From the NCBI RefSeq assembly GCF_006352475.1, contig NZ_VCMZ01000001.1:3905479-3969478 (forward strand): DNA of 64,000 nucleotides, given 5' to 3'. The first letter of the stretch is position 1; each line of letters begins with the position of its first letter. Shown in pieces: positions 42,925 through 50,515 of the stretch. This DNA is from Acinetobacter pullicarnis. GTDB lineage: Bacteria; Pseudomonadota; Gammaproteobacteria; Pseudomonadales; Moraxellaceae. Made by a program: the position numbers and the translations under genes. The notes beneath the pieces were generated by a model. It saw nothing but the letters and a program-made list of their open reading frames with translations. It searched no databases and was not told where the DNA came from.

Positions 42925-43890
42925 ATGGAATCCATTGGCAATATTTGGCTCTATCTGGTGTTTTTCGGCCTCGTTACCGTCATGCTCTGCATCGACTTTT
43001 TAGGCTTTAAACAAAAACAAGATCAAGCACCGAGCGTAAAATCTGCGGCATTCTGGAGCCTTGCGTGGGTCAGTATTGCCATGCTATTTGCAGGAGGGCT
43101 GTGGCTCTACCTACAACAAACTGCTGGCGTTGCACTGGCGAATCAAAAAACCATGGAATATATCGCGGGTTATTTACTGGAAAAATCCCTCGCGATTGAT
43201 AACGTCTTTGTTTGGCTCATGATTTTCGCAGCATTCTCCATCTCACCAGCATTACAACGCCAACTGTTGCTCTACGGGGTGCTCGGTGCCATCGTGCTAC
43301 GAACCATCTTTATTTTTATTGGTGCGTGGTTCGTGCAAGAATTCTCATGGGTGCTGTATATTTTTGGCGCGTTCTTGGTCTATACCGGCTTTAAATTCCT
43401 TAAGGGCCAAGATGAAGATCAAGACATTGAGGACATGAAACTACTCAAGTGGTTACGCAAACATATGCGAATCACCCCAAAACTTGAAGGCAATCGCTTC
43501 TTTGTCCGTCAAAATGGCGTGCTGTGGGCAACCCCATTATTTTTAGTGCTGATCTTGGTTGAAGCATCCGATGTGATTTTCGCGGTCGATTCGATCCCGG
43601 CTATTTTTGCGGTAACCAGTGATCCCTTCATCGTATTGACTGCAAACTTAATGGCGATTTTGGGCCTACGTGCAATGTTCTTTTTATTGGCTGGCGCTGC
43701 GGAGAAAATGCATTATCTCCCATACGGTCTCGGCATTATCTTGTTATTCATTGGCTTTAAAATGTTGATGCTCGATGTATTCCACATGCCAATCTGGATT
43801 TCACTCAGCTTTATTGCCATCGTCTTAGCAGTGACGGCTTGGTTATCGCTACGTTATCACCGTAAACAGTCTGACTTAAACCAAGGTTAA
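42925..43890 (+). CDS. TerC/Alx-family integral membrane protein, probable manganese exporter
   Basis: A 321-residue protein with nine hydrophobic segments. It has the TerC-family motifs SLAIDNVFVWLMIF (about residues 94-107), with the conserved acidic metal site, and LVEASDVIFAVDSIPAIFAV (about 214-233). The ATG at 42925 is chosen since GGAG lies nine bases before it; an earlier ATG at 42895 sits directly on the riboswitch terminator. Alx of E. coli and other family members export Mn2+, and the riboswitch in the leader supports the same role here. It overlaps the convergent next gene by 15 bp. Confidence 0.9.
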   Translation: MESIGNIWLYLVFFGLVTVMLCIDFLGFKQKQDQAPSVKSAAFWSLAWVSIAMLFAGGLWLYLQQTAGVALANQKTMEYIAGYLLEKSLAIDNVFVWLMIFAAFSISPALQRQLLLYGVLGAIVLRTIFIFIGAWFVQEFSWVLYIFGAFLVYTGFKFLKGQDEDQDIEDMKLLKWLRKHMRITPKLEGNRFFVRQNGVLWATPLFLVLILVEASDVIFAVDSIPAIFAVTSDPFIVLTANLMAILGLRAMFFLLAGAAEKMHYLPYGLGIILLFIGFKMLMLDVFHMPIWISLSFIAIVLAVTAWLSLRYHRKQSDLNQG

Positions 43891-44442
43891 TTGCGGCCAA
43901 CGCTGTAAAAAACCTTTAGATTCAACTCTTGCCATAAATGTGCGGTGGCTAACCAATGTAGGATTCCACCGTACTTTTAGCGCAAGTAAATCGGTTAAAC
44001 CAAAGGGCGCAATGATCTCAAGTTGATCATCTCCCAACGTCTCACTTTTCAACAAACGCACTGCAATCGCCGTGGCTGTTTCAGGCCATAGTGACAGTGC
44101 GTGTTCAATACTGCTTAGCGGTGCAATCCGTTCGCCTTGATCGGTTCGATACCATTGATGCACCAAGGCTTGATTGACCACATCCCATGTATTTTCTGGA
44201 AAATGTTGGCTTAACTGCTGGCTTAAACGAACTTGCGCTGCATCCTGCACATCCTCTGCATCATAGAAGATCACATCGATTTCAGTCCCCGCCATCTGAT
44301 ATTGCTGCGCATGCAAACTGCTCCAAACCAAGTTCCGAATCACACCCGCAGCAAGATAGGCATTTGGGTTTAACTCGCTTAATACCGTGAGTCTTTGCAT
44401 TAGGGCAGGGGATTGCTGCAATAGGTCTGTGAGTAGGGTCAT
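43876..44442 (-). CDS. Nucleotidyltransferase-family protein (DUF925-like)
   Basis: A 188-residue protein with the polymerase-beta-like fold features AAGVIRNLVWSSLHAQQY (about residues 31-48) and TEIDVIFYDAED (53-64), which place the two metal-binding acidic residues. GLTDLLALKVRWNP is near residue 150 and FMARVESKGFLQRWPQL at the end. These match the DUF925 group, similar to CCA-adding and other nucleotidyltransferases; no substrate is known. It overlaps the TerC gene end by 15 bp and is the last chromosomal-type gene before the pdif island. Confidence 0.85.
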   Translation of the reverse strand: MTLLTDLLQQSPALMQRLTVLSELNPNAYLAAGVIRNLVWSSLHAQQYQMAGTEIDVIFYDAEDVQDAAQVRLSQQLSQHFPENTWDVVNQALVHQWYRTDQGERIAPLSSIEHALSLWPETATAIAVRLLKSETLGDDQLEIIAPFGLTDLLALKVRWNPTLVSHRTFMARVESKGFLQRWPQLTLV

Positions 44443-44552
44443 ATTCGCTTCGGTGTCGGTTTGTGTTTATTAGAACAGGGATTGTTAAACTGAGCTTACT
44501 TAACTTATGAAACAACGGTCAATAAATATACGTGAAACGATCTAAATCATGC

Positions 44553-44584
44553 AAAAAGCCCAATCGGTGATGATTGGGCTTTTT
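44553..44584 (+). terminator. Rho-independent terminator at the left edge of the accessory island
   Basis: A 13-bp stem (44553-44565 AAAAAGCCCAATC with 44572-44584 GATTGGGCTTTTT) with a six-base loop, usable in both directions. It lies 43 bp before the first pdif-like site. Confidence 0.85.
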
Positions 44585-44626
44585 GTAATACTATAAAACC
44601 ATGATTTGCAAAGAATAAATCAGAGA

Positions 44627-44654
44627 GTTTCGCATAACTCGTATTATGTTAATT
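44627..44654 (+). other. pdif-like XerC/XerD recombination site 1 (C|D orientation)
   Basis: The 28-bp site is XerC arm GTTTCGCATAA (44627-44637), six-base spacer CTCGTA and XerD arm TTATGTTAATT (44644-44654). The XerD arm differs by one base from the canonical TTATGTTAAAT, and the XerC arm is the same as in site 2. Such sites flank exchangeable modules on Acinetobacter plasmids. It lies 19 bp from the end of the HEPN gene. Confidence 0.82.
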
Positions 44655-44673
44655 TTAGAAAATTTTCAATATT

Positions 44674-45324
44674 TTAAGATTTTTCCTTAACCTGAGGGGG
44701 ATTCATAATCTCTGTTATCGGAGTCGTATAGTGATGAACATCTAATCCATTTTGATTACACTTCCGCATCCACATTCCCTCTAAATCTGAAGCAGCTTTA
44801 ATAAACTTTTCCATATTTTCGAGATTAGAGTAGCTCATTAGATTATTTTTAGTTTTTGGATAACCGTTTAATAATAAGGCATAACGATGAATACGTTTGA
44901 TATCTATAGTTTTTTTAACATATGTATATTCTGGCGTAGTTTTTTTGGGTTTTAAATGAACAAGTGCATTTCTAAAATTCTTCATTTTATTAATAGTCTG
45001 CCAAGGTTCTCTAGACCAATCTACTTCCAGACCAAGATGTTCACTTACCAAAGAAACTTTACCTAAAAAGCTAGCACTTTCTAGTAAGTCCCAATTCTTG
45101 ATTAATTGAGATCCATATAAATTACATACCGATTCCACATTGAATACAGCAAAAGACATAGCTGGGATAATCCATCTAAATTTGTGTCCAGTTTCTTCCT
45201 CTTTAGCTTTCCCTGCCTGATTCAACATAATTGAACCTAGATAATTATGATGTGTTTCAAACATTTCAATTTTTACTTTGTAATGAGTATCTTCATTTAC
45301 TACAGAATTCATATCAAAATTCAT
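44674..45324 (-). CDS. HEPN-domain protein of unknown function in a pdif module
   Basis: A 216-residue, AT-rich gene product I cannot name. It is mostly helical and carries NFRNALVHLKPKK, where Arg118 and His123 form the R-x4-H motif of HEPN ribonucleases. The predicted helices before it (ESVCNLYGSQLIKNWDLLES) fit a HEPN fold. Such proteins are common as toxins or defence effectors, but a catalytic role here is inference. No antitoxin gene of MNT type is beside it. The gene fills most of the 740-bp interval between two inversely oriented pdif-like sites. The start may be residue 1 or Met5. Confidence 0.7.
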   Translation of the reverse strand: MNFDMNSVVNEDTHYKVKIEMFETHHNYLGSIMLNQAGKAKEEETGHKFRWIIPAMSFAVFNVESVCNLYGSQLIKNWDLLESASFLGKVSLVSEHLGLEVDWSREPWQTINKMKNFRNALVHLKPKKTTPEYTYVKKTIDIKRIHRYALLLNGYPKTKNNLMSYSNLENMEKFIKAASDLEGMWMRKCNQNGLDVHHYTTPITEIMNPPQVKEKS

Positions 45325-45627
45325 CTAAAAAAATAATAAGACATTGATTGTATTTAATAAAAATAAAAATAAAACACCTATTTTTTATATAGCCATTTAA
45401 CATAATGGCGCTTATGCGAAACGTAACAATATAAAATATTGAAAATCAATAAGTTACTGTTTTACATAATGCCGAATTTTGACCGAAAAGCGGACTTGGA
45501 AACAAAACGGCTTTTTTATGAGCAAAACTGGAACATTCTGCCAATAAAATCCATCTCTAATCTCTGAATTGCTTATCCCTATTATTCATTACAACATATA
45601 GACTATAACCTATATATTGGTTGTGAT
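45325..45627. other. Intergenic region with pdif site 2 and the higBA promoter remnant
   Basis: The 303-bp AT-rich stretch holds pdif-like site 2 (45395-45422). Just before the higB remnant lies a palindromic region with outer ACAAC/GTTGT around 45592-45625, which may be the old higBA operator. Nothing else was recognised. Confidence 0.5.
45395..45422 (-). other. pdif-like XerC/XerD recombination site 2 (D|C orientation)
   Basis: XerD arm ATTTAACATAA (45395-45405), a perfect complement of the canonical TTATGTTAAAT; spacer TGGCGC; XerC arm TTATGCGAAAC (45412-45422), the exact complement of the arm in site 1. It lies inverted to site 1 and in the same orientation as site 3. Confidence 0.88.
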
Positions 45628-45919
45628 ATGTGGACAGTCATCACGACAGACATATTCAATGAATGGCTTGAACAACAAGATGAATCAACTCAAGAAAAGG
45701 TTTTAGCGGCGTTGATTGTGCTGCAACGACAAGGGCCTGGCTTAGGTTGACCTTTAGTCGATAACTTTAAATTCACCAACATGAAAGAACTTCGTGTTCA
45801 ACATCGTGGAAATGACCTTAAGATTTTTTACCATGAAAAAGTATATTGAAGCTATGGGAGGAAAACTCCGTATTGATGTGGAACTTCCAACAAGAAAACA
45901 CATAGGATTCAATTTTTAA
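45628..45919 (+). pseudogene. higB: Degenerate higBA toxin-antitoxin locus
   Basis: A HigB/RelE-like toxin frame starts at the ATG at 45628 (MWTVITTDIFNEWLEQQDES) but is stopped by an in-frame TGA at 45748-45750. The frame resumes as PLVDNFKFTNMKELRVQHRG and stops again at 45847-45849, short of the catalytic C-terminus. From 45833 a different frame encodes 28 residues ending at 45919 (MKKYIEAMGGKLRIDVELP), resembling the C-terminus of a HigA antitoxin. Thus a nonsense mutation and a deletion joining higB to the end of higA have destroyed the pair. Intact higBA loci of this type occur in Acinetobacter plasmids, often in pdif modules. Confidence 0.8.
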
Positions 45920-45926
45920 CTATAAA

Positions 45927-45948
45927 AAAGGTAACTTAAACTACCTTT
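45927..45948 (+). terminator. Hairpin between the higBA remnant and the RelA/SpoT-domain gene
   Basis: AAAGGTA (45927-45933) pairs with TACCTTT (45942-45948), with A's on the left and T's on the right, so it can serve either convergent transcript. The stem is short. Confidence 0.5.
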
Positions 45949-45964
45949 CTATTCAAAATATTTT

Positions 45965-47149
45965 CTATACATTCACTGACATTTTTTTTGACTTCTTCTC
46001 AATTATAGATAAGCTTACAACCATTTTTATATAACTAATATAATTTAAAAACAATTCAGAATCAGCAAAGTAGTTAGGATAGGCCTCTTTTAGTCCCCCA
46101 ACAGCATCTGTAGATAATAATGTAATTATCCATTTCTTGTCATTAGATAATAATTGCTCATACTGGCTATACCTGAGAGAAGCTAAGTCATGCTCTGAAC
46201 GATTAAAAAATTCGTCTTCAATCTTATAGTTTTGAACATTTAATCTGATTAAAACAAAACCATCTTTATAATTTTTAGACATAATCTTTTTGTTAATTTC
46301 TTCAGCTGCTTTACAGTAACTTTTTAACTGTTCTTCAAAGGACATAAAACCCATCTTCATCTCTAATATTTTAGTTATATCAATACATTGTCGTGTCAAC
46401 GTATAATCAGATAATACCCTTTTCAAATATTCTTTTAAAAATATTCCCCGATCATTATTCTGAAAACCTGGCAAGTTTTCCATCAGTTGAAATTGATCGC
46501 TAACGTCTTTAAAAAAATTTTTGTATGCAAGAAATCCTAAATTACTTTTTAAATTTTGTCCTGTGAATATATCAACTATTTCTAAAGCAGTAGCCCAGCT
46601 ATGTTGTAATGTAGTTCTTATCTGAAATTCAATCTTTCTCTCTTCATCTACTTCATTATTAAACTTACCAACTATATGAAGACATCTATATCCGTCATCT
46701 TTAGGGTTTTCAATGTAATTATCCATCTTAATTAACTTATCACCGTTATAAAAACAGTGTTCATTTATTAAAATTTTATAAATAGAATCTATTTTTGATA
46801 AATCAGAAACAACAACCCTAATACCGCCTATATCTTGCATATTTTTTAATTGCATTTGATCAAAACGTTGTAATTTTTTTTTGATCGAATCAAATCTTTT
46901 CAATCTTTTTGCTACAAACGCTTTTTTATCAACTCTATGTATAAAACGATTAAGTAAAGTATGTGCCAAATTTAAAGGCACAATATGGCTATTTCTCCAA
47001 TAAGTAAGCACGCTCATAGTATGATGAAAAGCTGCCTCGTCATTAGTTAAACTATCTTTTATTAAAGCTTCACCTGCTCGTACAACTTCTTTTTTAGAAA
47101 AATTCATAAGTAAGAAAATCTGATTTTTTCGCATCTTATTAGAATTCAT
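45965..47149 (-). CDS. RelA/SpoT synthetase-domain protein in the pdif island
   Basis: A 394-residue AT-rich protein with the (p)ppGpp synthetase fold: RLKRFDSIKKKL (about residues 82-93, nucleotide-binding basic helix), MQDIGGIRVVVSD (104-116), DGYRCLHIVGKF (152-163) and EFQIRTTLQHSWATALE (174-190). These are the main conserved blocks of the synthetase domain. There is no HD hydrolase and no TGS/ACT regulatory domain, so it is neither a normal RelA nor SpoT. The last 200 residues are helical and unassigned. Related single-domain alarmone synthetases act as toxins (toxSAS) or phage-defence effectors; that role here is inference. Confidence 0.82.
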   Translation of the reverse strand: MNSNKMRKNQIFLLMNFSKKEVVRAGEALIKDSLTNDEAAFHHTMSVLTYWRNSHIVPLNLAHTLLNRFIHRVDKKAFVAKRLKRFDSIKKKLQRFDQMQLKNMQDIGGIRVVVSDLSKIDSIYKILINEHCFYNGDKLIKMDNYIENPKDDGYRCLHIVGKFNNEVDEERKIEFQIRTTLQHSWATALEIVDIFTGQNLKSNLGFLAYKNFFKDVSDQFQLMENLPGFQNNDRGIFLKEYLKRVLSDYTLTRQCIDITKILEMKMGFMSFEEQLKSYCKAAEEINKKIMSKNYKDGFVLIRLNVQNYKIEDEFFNRSEHDLASLRYSQYEQLLSNDKKWIITLLSTDAVGGLKEAYPNYFADSELFLNYISYIKMVVSLSIIEKKSKKMSVNV

Positions 47150-47253
47150 ACACTTGTACCATAGGCTATTTCCTATTAGAACAAATTACGCTCAATTTAA
47201 ATCTTGATACTTTTTTAATCATAACAAGAAATGAATTACACTTTTAATTTATT

Positions 47254-47281
47254 ACTTAACATAAAATCTCTTATGCGAAAT
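47254..47281 (-). other. pdif-like XerC/XerD recombination site 3 (D|C orientation)
   Basis: XerD arm ACTTAACATAA (47254-47264), one mismatch from the canonical arm; spacer AATCTC; XerC arm TTATGCGAAAT (47271-47281). It bounds the right side of the higBA/RelA-SpoT segment and lies next to the ISNCY-type element. Confidence 0.82.
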
Positions 47282-47286
47282 CAACT

Positions 47287-48769
47287 TGTAAGCCCAAAAT
47301 AGAAATGTCCGGTTTCTCCAAAGTAAAAATGTCCGCTTTTAGAATATGCACTTTTGCGATTATTGAAGCGGACGGTTTGATATGTTGGTGTCTATGTCGG
47401 ATAAAGAACTTAAACGATTGTCGGTCTTGCAGGAAATCTGCGATCAACGCATAACTCAATCCCAGGCTGCTCAGCTACTTCATATTTCAGAACGTCAGAT
47501 CAGACGCTTACTGCAGAAATACAAAGCTCAAGGCCCAGCTGCATTAGCCCATGCTGGTCGTGGCCAAACCAGCAACTGCAAACTTCCTGAAGAACTCAGA
47601 CTCAAGTGCCTCAATATTGTTTCGGATCAACTCCATGGTTTCGGACCCACTTTAGCGCATGAAAAGCTCACTACCGTTCATGGATTCGATCTTTCAGTGG
47701 AAACCCTGCGTTGCTGGATGATTGCAGCCGATTTATGGATTCCTCGCTCCAAGCGCCTGAAACGCCCATATCAGCCTCGATATAACCGAGATTGTTATGG
47801 TGAACTGGTACAAATCGATGGCTCACACCATGACTGGTTTGAAGGAAGAGCCGCTAAATGCTGTCTGCTAGTCTTTATCGATGATGCCACAGGCAAATTG
47901 CAGCATTTACGCTTCTGTGAATCAGAATCAGCCTTTGACTATATGATTTCGACACGCTTGTATGTTGAACAGCATGGTAAGCCTTTAGCGTTTTACAGCG
48001 ACAAACATTCAGTCTTTAGGGTGAATCAAAGCAGCAAGAAAGACAGCAAGATTACCCAGTTTGGACGCGTACTCAGTACCCTCAATATCGATATCATCTT
48101 CGCTAACTCCCCTCAGGCCAAAGGACGGGTGGAACGGGCCAACAGAACCCTTCAGGACCGTCTGATTAAGGAGATGCGCCTGGAAGGTATCAGTTCGATT
48201 GCAGATGCGAATAAGTGGTTACCCTGCTTTATTGAGCAGTTCAATCTCAAGTTTGCAAAGATGGCCTTTAATCCTAAGAACTTACACCGCTCTGCCACCG
48301 AAACAGCTGAGCAATTAGATGATATTTTTACCTGGCGAGAGCCACGTAGAGTCACCAATAGCCTGACCATTACTTATGATAAATGTGTATATCTCCTGGA
48401 GAGTACAGAAGAAAACCAGAGGCTGATTGGTAAATATCTTGAGTTTCTAGAATACCCGGATGGTACTGTAGCCATCATGCATGAAGGCCGGAAGATCAAT
48501 TACAGCATCTTCGATAAATTAAGTCAGCTCAACCAGCGAGAGATTGTTGAGAATAAACGGTTGGGTGCTGTTCTGAATCATATCCAACAACAGCATGAAG
48601 AACTGGAACAACAAAACAAACGCAATCGTTCTCAAAAGATGCCAAGCAGACGTGCACAGAAAACAGCAATTCAACAACGAAATCTGAATCCTGTGCTTGA
48701 CTTGGAAATGTCCATATAGGACATTTCTATTTGGTTATTAGGTAGGACATTTCTACTTGGGAATAACAC
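47287..48769 (+). mobile_element. ISNCY-family (ISDol1-like) insertion sequence
   Basis: The element surrounds one large transposase gene. Its left end contains CCCAAAATAGAAATGTCC (47293-47310) and an inner AAATGTCC copy near 47327. The right end carries the inverted counterparts GGACATTTCTACTTGGG (48745-48761) and GGACATTTCTAT (48719-48730), so inverted subterminal repeats of AGAAATGTCC are clear. The exact outer boundaries and target duplication could not be fixed, so the coordinates are approximate. A diverged copy of the left end follows at 48770-48796. Confidence 0.78.
47382..48719 (+). CDS. ISNCY-family transposase
   Basis: A 445-residue DDE transposase. The N-terminal helix-turn-helix is ITQSQAAQLLHISERQIRRL (about residues 24-43). 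The catalytic rve domain has Asp in VQIDGSHHDWF (about residue 147), Asp in FYSDKHSVF (about 206) and Glu in SPQAKGRVERANRTLQDR (about 252). A C-terminal region with many Gln and Arg follows. No stop or frameshift is seen, so it may be active. The start could be Met1 or Met5. Confidence 0.88.
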   Translation: MLVSMSDKELKRLSVLQEICDQRITQSQAAQLLHISERQIRRLLQKYKAQGPAALAHAGRGQTSNCKLPEELRLKCLNIVSDQLHGFGPTLAHEKLTTVHGFDLSVETLRCWMIAADLWIPRSKRLKRPYQPRYNRDCYGELVQIDGSHHDWFEGRAAKCCLLVFIDDATGKLQHLRFCESESAFDYMISTRLYVEQHGKPLAFYSDKHSVFRVNQSSKKDSKITQFGRVLSTLNIDIIFANSPQAKGRVERANRTLQDRLIKEMRLEGISSIADANKWLPCFIEQFNLKFAKMAFNPKNLHRSATETAEQLDDIFTWREPRRVTNSLTITYDKCVYLLESTEENQRLIGKYLEFLEYPDGTVAIMHEGRKINYSIFDKLSQLNQREIVENKRLGAVLNHIQQQHEELEQQNKRNRSQKMPSRRAQKTAIQQRNLNPVLDLEMSI

Positions 48770-48796
48770 AACTTTGTAAGTCCAAAATAGAAATAT
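48770..48796 (+). repeat. Diverged copy of the ISNCY-type left end beyond its right end
   Basis: AACTTTGTAAGTCCAAAATAG and the next bases to 48796 repeat, with four small differences, the sequence at 47283-47310 that starts the IS. It is a direct repeat far longer than a target duplication. It may be the remnant of a second related element. Confidence 0.55.
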
Positions 48797-48853
48797 CTAA
48801 TTTCGATACCCAACACAAAACCGCATATCCACCTTGCTTTTACCCATCGACAA

Positions 48854-49039
48854 TCAGCCAAAGGCTTTTTTGATTTTCTGATCGGTTTTGTATTGCGATA
48901 AAGCATACACCGCCCAAATGGCAGCGGGGATCCAACCAATCAAGGTAACCTGTAAAATTAAACAAAAAATTCCTGCAATCGGACGACCAATGGTAAAAAA
49001 TACCAGCCATGGCAGAATTAAAGCAATGATCAGTCTCAT
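48854..49039 (-). CDS. YqaE/Pmp3-family small membrane protein
   Basis: A 61-residue protein with two hydrophobic segments (about residues 2-17 and 22-47). The Pmp3 pattern is LPWLVFFTIGRPIAGIFCLI followed by TLIGWIPAAIWAVYAL. Such proteins are linked to membrane potential and stress tolerance in yeast, plants and bacteria. The gene is monocistronic and is the first chromosomal-type gene right of the accessory island. Confidence 0.85.
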   Translation of the reverse strand: MRLIIALILPWLVFFTIGRPIAGIFCLILQVTLIGWIPAAIWAVYALSQYKTDQKIKKAFG

Positions 49040-49186
49040 ATTACATTCCTATATTTGAAGAAAGCGCTATTCAATAGCCTACTATACGTTTATTTAAGTT
49101 AAAACCGCATCTGCAAAATACTGTTTATGCGCAACCTCACCAAATTCGTTACAATTCACTGAAAAAATAATTCTATGTAGGTTCTT

Positions 49187-50515
49187 ATGTCATCCGTTAT
49201 TGCCCCAAGTGCCATTCGTGGTCGCTTTCTCGATATCCAATCCACTGTTGATCAAGCTGCCGCAATTCCTGAGCAAGTCCGTTTTATTGAAGATGGGCTG
49301 TTGATTACCCAAGACGGTAAAATTCAATGGTTTGGAACTTGGCAAGCAGGGCAGCATCTGGCTGCAGATCTACAGGTCGAGCATTATCCTGATCAACTGA
49401 TTTTGCCTGGCTTGATCGACACCCATATTCATTTCCCACAAACAGAAATGATTGGCGCCTACGGTGAACAACTGCTCGAATGGCTCAATACCTATACCTT
49501 TCCCACTGAAATGCAATTTGAAGACAAGGCGTATGCCGATCAAATCGCTGCATTTTTTGTGCAAGAGCTGCTGAAAAATGGCACCACCACGGCATTGGTG
49601 TTCTGTACGGTGCATCCGCAATCCGTCGATGCATTGTTTGAAGCTGCTGAGCGCCATCACATGCGTTTAATCGCGGGTAAGGTGTTGATGGACCGTCATG
49701 CACCTGAAGCGCTGTGTGACACGCCAGAGAGCGCTTATACAGACTCTAAAGCCTTGATTCAAAAGTGGCATGGCAAAGGTCGTAACTTGTATGCCATCAC
49801 TCCACGCTTTGCGCCAACCTCAACTGCAGCACAACTAGCGCAAGCAGGGCAGCTCAAAGCAGAACATCCTGATGTGTATGTACATACTCATCTCAGTGAA
49901 AATCAAAATGAAATTGCTTGGGTCAAATCGCTATTCCCCGAACAAAAAAACTATTTAGATGTCTATCATCATTATGGTTTAACTGGATCACGTTCAGTCT
50001 TTGCACATTGTGTGCATTTAGAGGAACAAGAATGGCAATGTTTGCACGACACCGACTCTGCAATTGCCTTCTGCCCAAGTTCAAATCTATTTTTAGGCAG
50101 TGGCTTATTTCCACTGAAAAAAACTTGGGAAAAACAAGTCAAAGTTGGCTTAGGCACCGATGTCGGGGCAGGCACGGCATTTAGTCAACTCGATACCCTC
50201 AATCAAGCCTATAAAGTCCAGCAGTTACAAGGCGATAAGCTCTCTGCCTTTGAAGCGCTTTATCATGCGACGCTTGGTGCGGCAAAAGCCTTAGACTTGC
50301 ATGAAAAATTAGGTAATTTTAATGTCGGTAAAGAAGCCGATTTCATCGTGTGTAATCTAAAGGCCACGGCGGTACAGGCATTGCGTCAAGATCGCGCCAA
50401 GAATATCGAGGATGCATTATTTGCATTGATGATGATGGGGGATGACCGCAATATTCAAGCCACTTACATCTACGGGCAAAAAGCCTATGCACAAGCAGAC
50501 CGCAACCAATACTAG
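49187..50515 (+). CDS. guaD: Guanine deaminase
   Basis: GuaD deaminates guanine to xanthine in purine salvage and breakdown. The 442-residue amidohydrolase has zinc ligands His80 and His82 in IDTHIHFPQTEM, the GKVLMDRHAPE segment near residue 165, VHTHLSENQNEI near 235, SVFAHCVHLEEQEW near 272 and the catalytic Asp in LGTDVGAGTAFS near 325, all in the order of the family. The start ATG at 49187 follows AGG. It lies 276 bp before hpt, another purine salvage gene. Confidence 0.95.
   Translation: MSSVIAPSAIRGRFLDIQSTVDQAAAIPEQVRFIEDGLLITQDGKIQWFGTWQAGQHLAADLQVEHYPDQLILPGLIDTHIHFPQTEMIGAYGEQLLEWLNTYTFPTEMQFEDKAYADQIAAFFVQELLKNGTTTALVFCTVHPQSVDALFEAAERHHMRLIAGKVLMDRHAPEALCDTPESAYTDSKALIQKWHGKGRNLYAITPRFAPTSTAAQLAQAGQLKAEHPDVYVHTHLSENQNEIAWVKSLFPEQKNYLDVYHHYGLTGSRSVFAHCVHLEEQEWQCLHDTDSAIAFCPSSNLFLGSGLFPLKKTWEKQVKVGLGTDVGAGTAFSQLDTLNQAYKVQQLQGDKLSAFEALYHATLGAAKALDLHEKLGNFNVGKEADFIVCNLKATAVQALRQDRAKNIEDALFALMMMGDDRNIQATYIYGQKAYAQADRNQY

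Follow-up and report, generated by a model that had tools for sequence, protein, structure and literature searches.

The end of a chromosomal contig of Acinetobacter pullicarnis (assembly GCF_006352475.1) carries three sites for the recombinases XerC and XerD, laid out like the pdif sites of Acinetobacter plasmids. The genome comprises 4,125,062 bases in three contigs, and the stretch analysed here (the window, to which plain coordinates refer) is the terminal 64 kb (64,000 nucleotides) of contig C1 (NZ_VCMZ01000001.1, 3,969,478 bp). The sites belong to an island at about 44480-49052, which lies beside the replication origin (oriC) in the gap between an NTP-transferase gene and a guanine deaminase gene (guaD). 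The best explanation, to which we assign a probability of about 0.76, is that the island represents the remaining arc of a small Acinetobacter plasmid of the Rep_3/OrfX kind (MobQ-type). The comparisons below support a plasmid origin for these chromosomal pdif-type sites.

The island shares its anatomy with plasmids. In plasmid order, the arc would run from a post-orfX element through a C|D site, a D module with a HEPN-type gene, a D|C site, a fused module and a D|C site with the spacer GAGATT to a Pmp3 gene. Because rep and orfX are absent from the searched piece (three Rep, four OrfX and three Mob queries gave no match in 43801-49600 at E 1e-4), the island is a relic rather than an intact plasmid; the rep, orfX and mob genes would have gone, leaving the accessory stretch and two backbone ends. 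The features of the arc are as follows.

44480..44626, plus strand: post-orfX backbone end of Rep_3/OrfX plasmids, with a terminator-like hairpin (44553-44585) ahead of the C|D site
44627..44654, plus strand: site 1, C|D, GTTTCGCATAA CTCGTA TTATGTTAATT, class A (arm TTATGTTAATT)
44674..45324, minus strand: HEPN-type gene (216 residues), carried by the D module that sites 1 and 2 enclose
45395..45422, minus strand: site 2, D|C, GTTTCGCATAA GCGCCA TTATGTTAAAT, class B
45424..45948, plus strand: remains of a higBA module (part of the toxin gene with stops, an internal deletion, the tail of the antitoxin gene)
45965..47149, minus strand: CapRel-like RelA/SpoT-domain protein (394 residues; Pfam RelA_SpoT)
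47254..47281, minus strand: site 3, D|C, ATTTCGCATAA GAGATT TTATGTTAAGT, class B
48854..49039, minus strand: Pmp3/YqaE gene (61 residues; Pfam Pmp3), the other backbone end

The two site classes were drawn by eye across the genus: class A has the arm TTATGTTAATT and a spacer usually ending in GTA, and class B has the arm TTATGTTAAAT or one ending in AAGT, with a spacer that ends in CCA or is GAGATT.

Plasmid-like DNA outside the sites

The evidence that carries this explanation lies outside the outer sites. A query spanning the left end (44443-44672) matched 718 plasmid records at E 0.001, 712 of them from Acinetobacter, with at least 80% coverage in 52, and the homology starts at 44478-44481 in all 25 matches listed. 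In plasmid pBspH6 (L165) the post-orfX stretch directly follows an orfX-type gene and leads into a C|D site; in pYH12138-7 (L164) the order is an orfX-type gene (NF038291), one small open reading frame, the post-orfX stretch and then a C|D site. In pBDT2091-4 (L168) no orfX-type gene is annotated in the examined stretch. The part to the left of the hairpin (44470-44552) alone outscores all 500 shuffles for three of four plasmids, and against the spacers between the NTP-transferase gene and guaD of three relatives it does not outscore them all.

At the right end, plasmid homology is confined to at most 48852-49060, the Pmp3 gene with a short upstream piece, which matched 57 plasmid records (25 from Acinetobacter) at 74-80% DNA identity among the 15 matches listed. 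In the two Pmp3 plasmids inspected, the gene has a mobilization protein and mobQ as neighbours, and its strand matches that in the window. The window Pmp3 is 81% identical to that of plasmid stretch L167. In p10FS3-1-9 a D|C GAGATT site precedes Pmp3, as site 3 does in the window, and the GAGATT site is likewise the last D|C site in four plasmid stretches (L152, L153, L164 and L166).

Several observations weigh against a single plasmid arc. The stretch left of the hairpin fails to beat its shuffles for the fourth plasmid, L167, and the Pmp3 plasmid L167 has no GAGATT D|C site at up to three mismatches. Pmp3 occurs on plasmids of other genera as well. No single plasmid with the whole arc was found: a near-identity search gave no record covering 80% of it, and the two ends were matched on different plasmids, so that the arc is pieced together. 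The empty site is known from other species only (guaD 77-84% identical at the protein level), and the junction bases are not fixed. Finally, the hairpin with a class A site is also found at chromosomal loci where no other plasmid genes were found; for that reason this element alone is no proof of a plasmid arc.

The same chromosome has two more partial post-orfX elements, one of them beside a C-terminal fragment of orfX. The latter belongs to a cluster on the opposite side of oriC (C1:81384-86790, L112), with sites bearing the spacers GAGATT, TGCCCA and AGTGTA, part of the post-orfX element, the orfX fragment (65.5% over 29 residues) and an identical copy of the insertion sequence (IS) described below; this cluster is a second plasmid remnant. 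The other element accompanies a lone class A site at C1:1980095-1980250 (L117), 47 kb from dif, and a RelE/ParE-type toxin-antitoxin stretch near that site has plasmid matches at 85-88%.

The sites and the modules between them

Scored on both strands of the window, the site consensus fits three places with no mismatch, none with one to three and two with four. For a 27-letter form of the consensus at up to three mismatches, 0.06 sites would be expected in the 64-kb window, and none of 100 shuffles reached three. All three sites have the pdif layout of an 11-bp XerC arm, a 6-bp spacer and an 11-bp XerD arm (28 bp). The first-pass annotation had noted the three sites, with their differing spacers, exactly where they are. 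It was also right that they enclose AT-rich accessory genes: the site-bearing interval has 27-34% GC in 500-bp steps, against mostly 40-51% in its surroundings, and the HEPN-type gene, the broken higBA pair and the RelA/SpoT-domain protein were each confirmed. The same holds for its placement of the set beside oriC and far from the main dif: DnaA is matched at C1:373, the island is 16.7-19.4 kb from the end of contig C1, and dif (spacer TGTATA) is at C1:2027050, some 1.9 Mb away.

The published rule is that recombination requires identical or nearly identical spacers, as stated in the relevant parts of PMC11705084 and PMC13141974. Since the spacers CTCGTA, GCGCCA and GAGATT differ, no excision is expected among sites 1-3; their only partners would be sites elsewhere with a similar spacer, reached in trans. 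At up to one mismatch, the genome has eleven sites on C1 (dif included) and nine on C3 (134,947 bp). Allowing up to three mismatches outside the spacer gives 36 matches, against six for a control pattern, so those with two or three mismatches are partly chance. The GAGATT spacer recurs at C1:81385 and, with two or three arm mismatches, at C1:669743, C1:670873 and C3:74589. Site 3 and C1:81385 flank oriC in opposite orientation, and recombination between them would invert about 98 kb including oriC.

Two pdif modules had been proposed for the island, and one of them stands. The interval 44627-45422 is bounded by inverse sites (C|D and D|C) and so fits the definition of a module. Its HEPN-type protein has no Pfam or NCBIfam match at E 0.001 and one weak match to a GW domain (E 0.056); an RNxxxH motif is invariant, the fold is HEPN-like, and the RxxxxH motif falls in a helical bundle, as in HEPN proteins. 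A 75% identical homologue on plasmid pBspH7 is flanked by inverse sites, a class B site (one mismatch) and a site with the arm TTATGTTAATT, with one further gene inside the module. The 3' end of the pBspH7 gene lies beside the TTATGTTAATT-arm site, on the orfX side of the plasmid, matching the arrangement in the window. This plasmid counterpart between two pdif sites bears out the first-pass view that the sites came from plasmids. Among 175 Acinetobacter genomes the gene was present in the island-bearing genome itself and in no other; a search of all proteins gave 16 relatives, among them entries from A. nosocomialis, A. baumannii and Neisseria.

The interval 45395-47281 is bounded by two D|C sites in the same orientation and falls outside the strict definition of a module. 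It begins with the higBA remains, which match 526 plasmid records; among the matches listed, homology starts at the edge of site 2. Relative to plasmid copy L155 about 340 bp are missing, and homology with L152 stops 5 bp short of that plasmid's C|D site (two mismatches). No decayed C|D site was found between the higBA remains and the CapRel-like gene (45423-45964) within six mismatches. In the terms of the parts of PMC13141974 that deal with such modules, sites 2 and 3 read as enclosing a CD fusion module, made of the higBA remainder and the CapRel-like gene, from which the C|D site has been lost.

The second gene of the fusion is the CapRel-like one. Its product matches PDB entries 7ztb and 9erv at E about 2e-24 over residues 39-372, retains the YPNYF stretch, and is matched by the PADLOC model PDC-S33 (E 3e-93). 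CapRel has a phage-sensing role. Entry 7ztb, itself titled 'RelA/SpoT family protein', is the one that we take to be CapRel; compared with it, the 394-residue protein is alike over most of its length and has YPNYF near the C-terminus, whereas identity is low and the likeness is one of sequence. On this footing the protein would fit a CapRel-type fused toxin-antitoxin, with a synthetase domain and a CapRel-type C-terminal part. Recurrence of the gene as dif-module cargo was looked for and not found: its relatives in the genus had no site (up to two mismatches) at any of ten wider loci, taken as about 5.5 kb on each side, one of them shortened by a contig end. In plasmid stretch L120 the nearest site to a CapRel-like gene is 4.7 kb off. 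Of the two intervals that were expected to recur elsewhere between pdif sites, then, the HEPN-type gene does so on pBspH7, and the CapRel-like gene does not at these ten loci.

Origin of the island

How did the arc reach this place? The chromosome junctions lie near 44480 and between 49052 and about 49137. Since neither is at an Xer site, we infer that the arc arrived as one piece, probably through illegitimate or homology-assisted integration, after which the plasmid DNA may or may not have been trimmed.

The locus was compared in 13 relatives, all of other species, drawn from 85 other genomes with a match to the NTP-transferase gene. In seven of them the gap between that gene and guaD measures 102-262 bp, and in six 1.8-3.9 kb. 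None of the 13 gaps has a site at up to three mismatches, and Pmp3 was not found around the locus in any of the 13 (E 1e-8). Extending the search to about 1.5 kb on each side of the NTP-transferase gene at 29 loci, these 13 included, again gave no site within three mismatches, so the absence of such a site from this place in the relatives compared, which the first-pass annotation had wanted checked, holds. A pattern scan of genome contigs with the NTP-transferase protein matched 44 stretches, none of which was confirmed. The proposal of a conserved station at this locus was rejected, the gap being free of sites in the 13 relatives. The genome with the best match to the NTP-transferase gene (G153) has a lone GAGATT site beyond terC (L099:14372-14399), about 4.3 kb from that gene.

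One elaboration adds to the plasmid-arc explanation without excluding it: the arc may have come first, and the HEPN module between sites 1 and 2 may later have been exchanged with another plasmid, the island serving as a docking place. Two other chromosomal loci (see below) point to an exchange of content between class A and class B sites in inverse orientation, a process published for plasmids in PMC13141974, and HEPN homologues occur in several Acinetobacter entries. Yet a single allele of the locus is to hand, no other site with the spacer CTCGTA is among the 36 matches in the genome itself, and the HEPN-type gene is confined to this genome among the 175; we consider such a history possible, on balance doubtful.

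The route put forward in the first-pass annotation was capture by XerCD, with one or more dif modules from a plasmid inserted into a pre-existing dif-like site beside oriC. The sites fit perfectly, the HEPN-type gene is found between pdif sites on a plasmid too, and at other loci sister genomes carry different modules, their homology stopping at the sites or a short way inside them. However, plasmid-type DNA extends beyond sites 1 and 3, the relatives offer no dif-like site in the spacer or near the NTP-transferase gene, and sites 2 and 3 share an orientation and differ in spacer. The presence or absence expected in related strains, with junctions exactly at the sites, was likewise not borne out by the comparison with other species, as plasmid-like DNA lies outside sites 1 and 3. 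We therefore regard Xer insertion as an unlikely route.

That the sites are chance or decayed sequence without a role is hardly credible: the broken higBA module and the lost site would suit it, but it is contradicted by the counts in the window, by the abundance of such sites in the genus (below) and by the IS placed 5 bp from site 3.

Taken as a plasmid arc, the island illustrates that sets of pdif sites on a chromosome can stem from capture of plasmid DNA rather than from Xer insertion, and that what lies beyond the outermost sites helps to distinguish these two origins.

IS1202-family insertions

Two further features lie between site 3 and the Pmp3 gene.

47287..48768, plus strand: IS of the IS1202 family (ISAjo2/ISAba32 group), 1482 bp, with a transposase of 445 residues (NF033594, 485 bits)
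48775..48800, plus strand: left-end remnant of an earlier IS1202-family element, matching at 21 of 26 bases

According to the sections of PMC10132070 that define the ISAjo2 group, its members have TGT...ACA ends, a 5-bp target site duplication and a transposase of 441-457 residues, and sit 5 bp from the XerC arms of pdif sites, of dif and of sites in chromosomal plasmid pieces. The window IS has every one of these properties; its duplication, CAACT, is at 47282-47286 and 48769-48773, and 5 bp lie between the element and the XerC arm of site 3. Given the targeting described in those sections, the insertion suggests that the XerC side of site 3 can still be recognised. Two further copies on C1 are 100% identical over the 1482 bp, one lying 5 bp from the main dif and the other 5 bp from a site at C1:83410; because the three copies are identical, recent moves are suggested. 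The copy at the main dif (C1:2025563-2027077, L116) is 5 bp from the XerC arm and has the duplication GATTG. The 26-base left-end remnant suggests an older insertion at the same place.

Possible module exchange at other chromosomal loci

Published accounts of chromosomal dif modules, in the parts that bear on the question, do not settle whether the modules are mobile there. Comparing sister genomes puts the question within reach of a test: one interval holds three unrelated modules in eight genomes, and another, between pyrE and gshB, has unrelated DNA in several species. The hairpin with a class A site served as a guide: at ten loci on large contigs, hand-picked from the match list, all ten have a site and nine an inverse partner 0.5-1.3 kb off.

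The interval in question, on the hemL/thiE side, is common to eight sister genomes (L189-L195 and L206), with the same two inverse sites. Four of them (G146, G117, G060 and G025) have interiors of 1045-1064 bp that are 97.8-99.9% alike, G058 has one of 878 bp, and G009, G112 and G043, which are three species, have a 100% identical interior of 342 bp. Blast comparison of the different interiors, 19 pairs in all, gives no match at E 0.001. The flanks are 87-96% alike to those of G146 up to the sites, and identity, taken bin by bin, is at chance level within about 20 bp inside them. There are weak spots: the left flank of G112 is just 32 bp, and the right flank of G043 runs for 31 bp before an IS interrupts it. 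The A. pittii plasmid pA2584 has an 88% copy of the 1045-bp interior, covering 87% of it; the orfX-side end of that copy is a class A site as on the chromosome, and its opposite end does not coincide with a site. Copies of the 878-bp interior, at 85-86%, occur on other plasmids within longer modules. At a second locus, 15.5 kb away, the same module is found in all genomes whose stretch covers it.

The interval between pyrE and gshB has sites in seven genomes: G158, G062, G136, G021, G068, G011 and G170 (L212-L215 and L219-L221). Among G021, G011 and G170, homology on the right starts exactly where the class B site does, and on the left it extends 4-16 bp beyond the class A site into the interval; their interiors (2.6, 3.3 and 4.4 kb) have no blast match to one another. 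G158, G062 and G136 have the class A site alone at up to two mismatches; G158 also has a GAGATT site with three mismatches, and its homology with G062 resumes 9 bp past that site. The interior of G170 contains two genes matching the Dcm model, one above and one below the cut-off. The left side is less clean, with other insertions farther out; for most pairs that include G158 or G068, the sequence outside the class A site is no more alike, without gaps, than chance would give. In the island-bearing genome the pyrE-gshB interval is present and has no site within four mismatches. Two more site-bearing loci (L216/L224 and L217/L222/L223), one of them beside guaA, have neighbour genes common between species.

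These comparisons support Xer exchange as a process likely to act on chromosomes, not as the route by which the island arrived; homologous recombination may account for the spread of swapped modules between lineages. Perhaps, then, the genus has fixed, vertically inherited dif-module stations (pyrE-gshB near the origin, the hemL side nearer the terminus and perhaps guaA), at which Xer would exchange cassettes between class A sites (C|D, arm TTATGTTAATT) and class B sites (D|C, spacer ending in CCA or GAGATT), much like a chromosomal integron run by XerCD, and the window arc, with its HEPN and CapRel-like defence genes, would be a freshly seeded station beside oriC. This proposal is tentative, possible rather than probable. 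Unrelated DNA between the same inverted sites at fixed chromosomal loci is apparently new; a literature search of limited extent found no published description of such stations.

Sites across the genus

Such sites are a regular feature of Acinetobacter. At least one at up to one mismatch was found in 173 of 175 genomes, whereas the pattern read backwards gave three matches in all. At up to one mismatch, 158 of the 175 have the spacer of dif (TGTATA) together with the adjacent bases, 154 of them once and 4 twice, and 17 lack it; because it mostly occurs once per genome, extra sites seldom share the dif spacer. On 28 chromosomes (27 genomes of one or two contigs and the island-bearing genome), 20 have at least one further site cluster besides dif, so a set far from the terminus is less telling than the first-pass annotation had taken it to be. 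Eleven of the 40 clusters are in the origin-most tenth (Kolmogorov-Smirnov p 0.001). We do not claim an enrichment near the origin, as orthology links many of the loci; the chromosome lengths in the test were rounded or guessed (for G152, 3.8 Mb against 3.56 Mb), sites with more than one mismatch were omitted, and eight of the 28 chromosomes, having no further site, contribute nothing to it.

Comparison with known systems

Chromosomal dif sites and modules are already known, and the island is a further case of a known gene-shuffling system. PMC6449649 reports additional dif sites on 19 of 20 chromosomes, and a chromosomal dif module island, that of Acinetobacter sp. M10, is described in PMC12907356. 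The window is like these in having a set of pdif-type sites, with modules, at a chromosomal position remote from dif. The M10 island, as described there, spans 36 kb with ten sites and resistance modules, whereas the window has three sites and no resistance gene that was noticed, keeps backbone ends and is beside oriC. The A. indicus chromosomal plasmid fragments brought by ISAba50, in the account of them within PMC10132070, similarly combine a pdif site with an ISAjo2-type IS beside its XerC arm, and have one pdif site against three here.

The island also resembles the accessory dif modules of Rep_3/OrfX plasmids of Acinetobacter, as set out in PMC13141974. It differs from those plasmids in being a chromosomal remnant, where searches gave no rep, orfX or mob. 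It shares with them the order of a backbone end, a C|D site, a D module, a D|C site, a CD fusion, a D|C site and a backbone end, together with higBA cargo, CD fusion modules and an ISAjo2-group IS on the C side.

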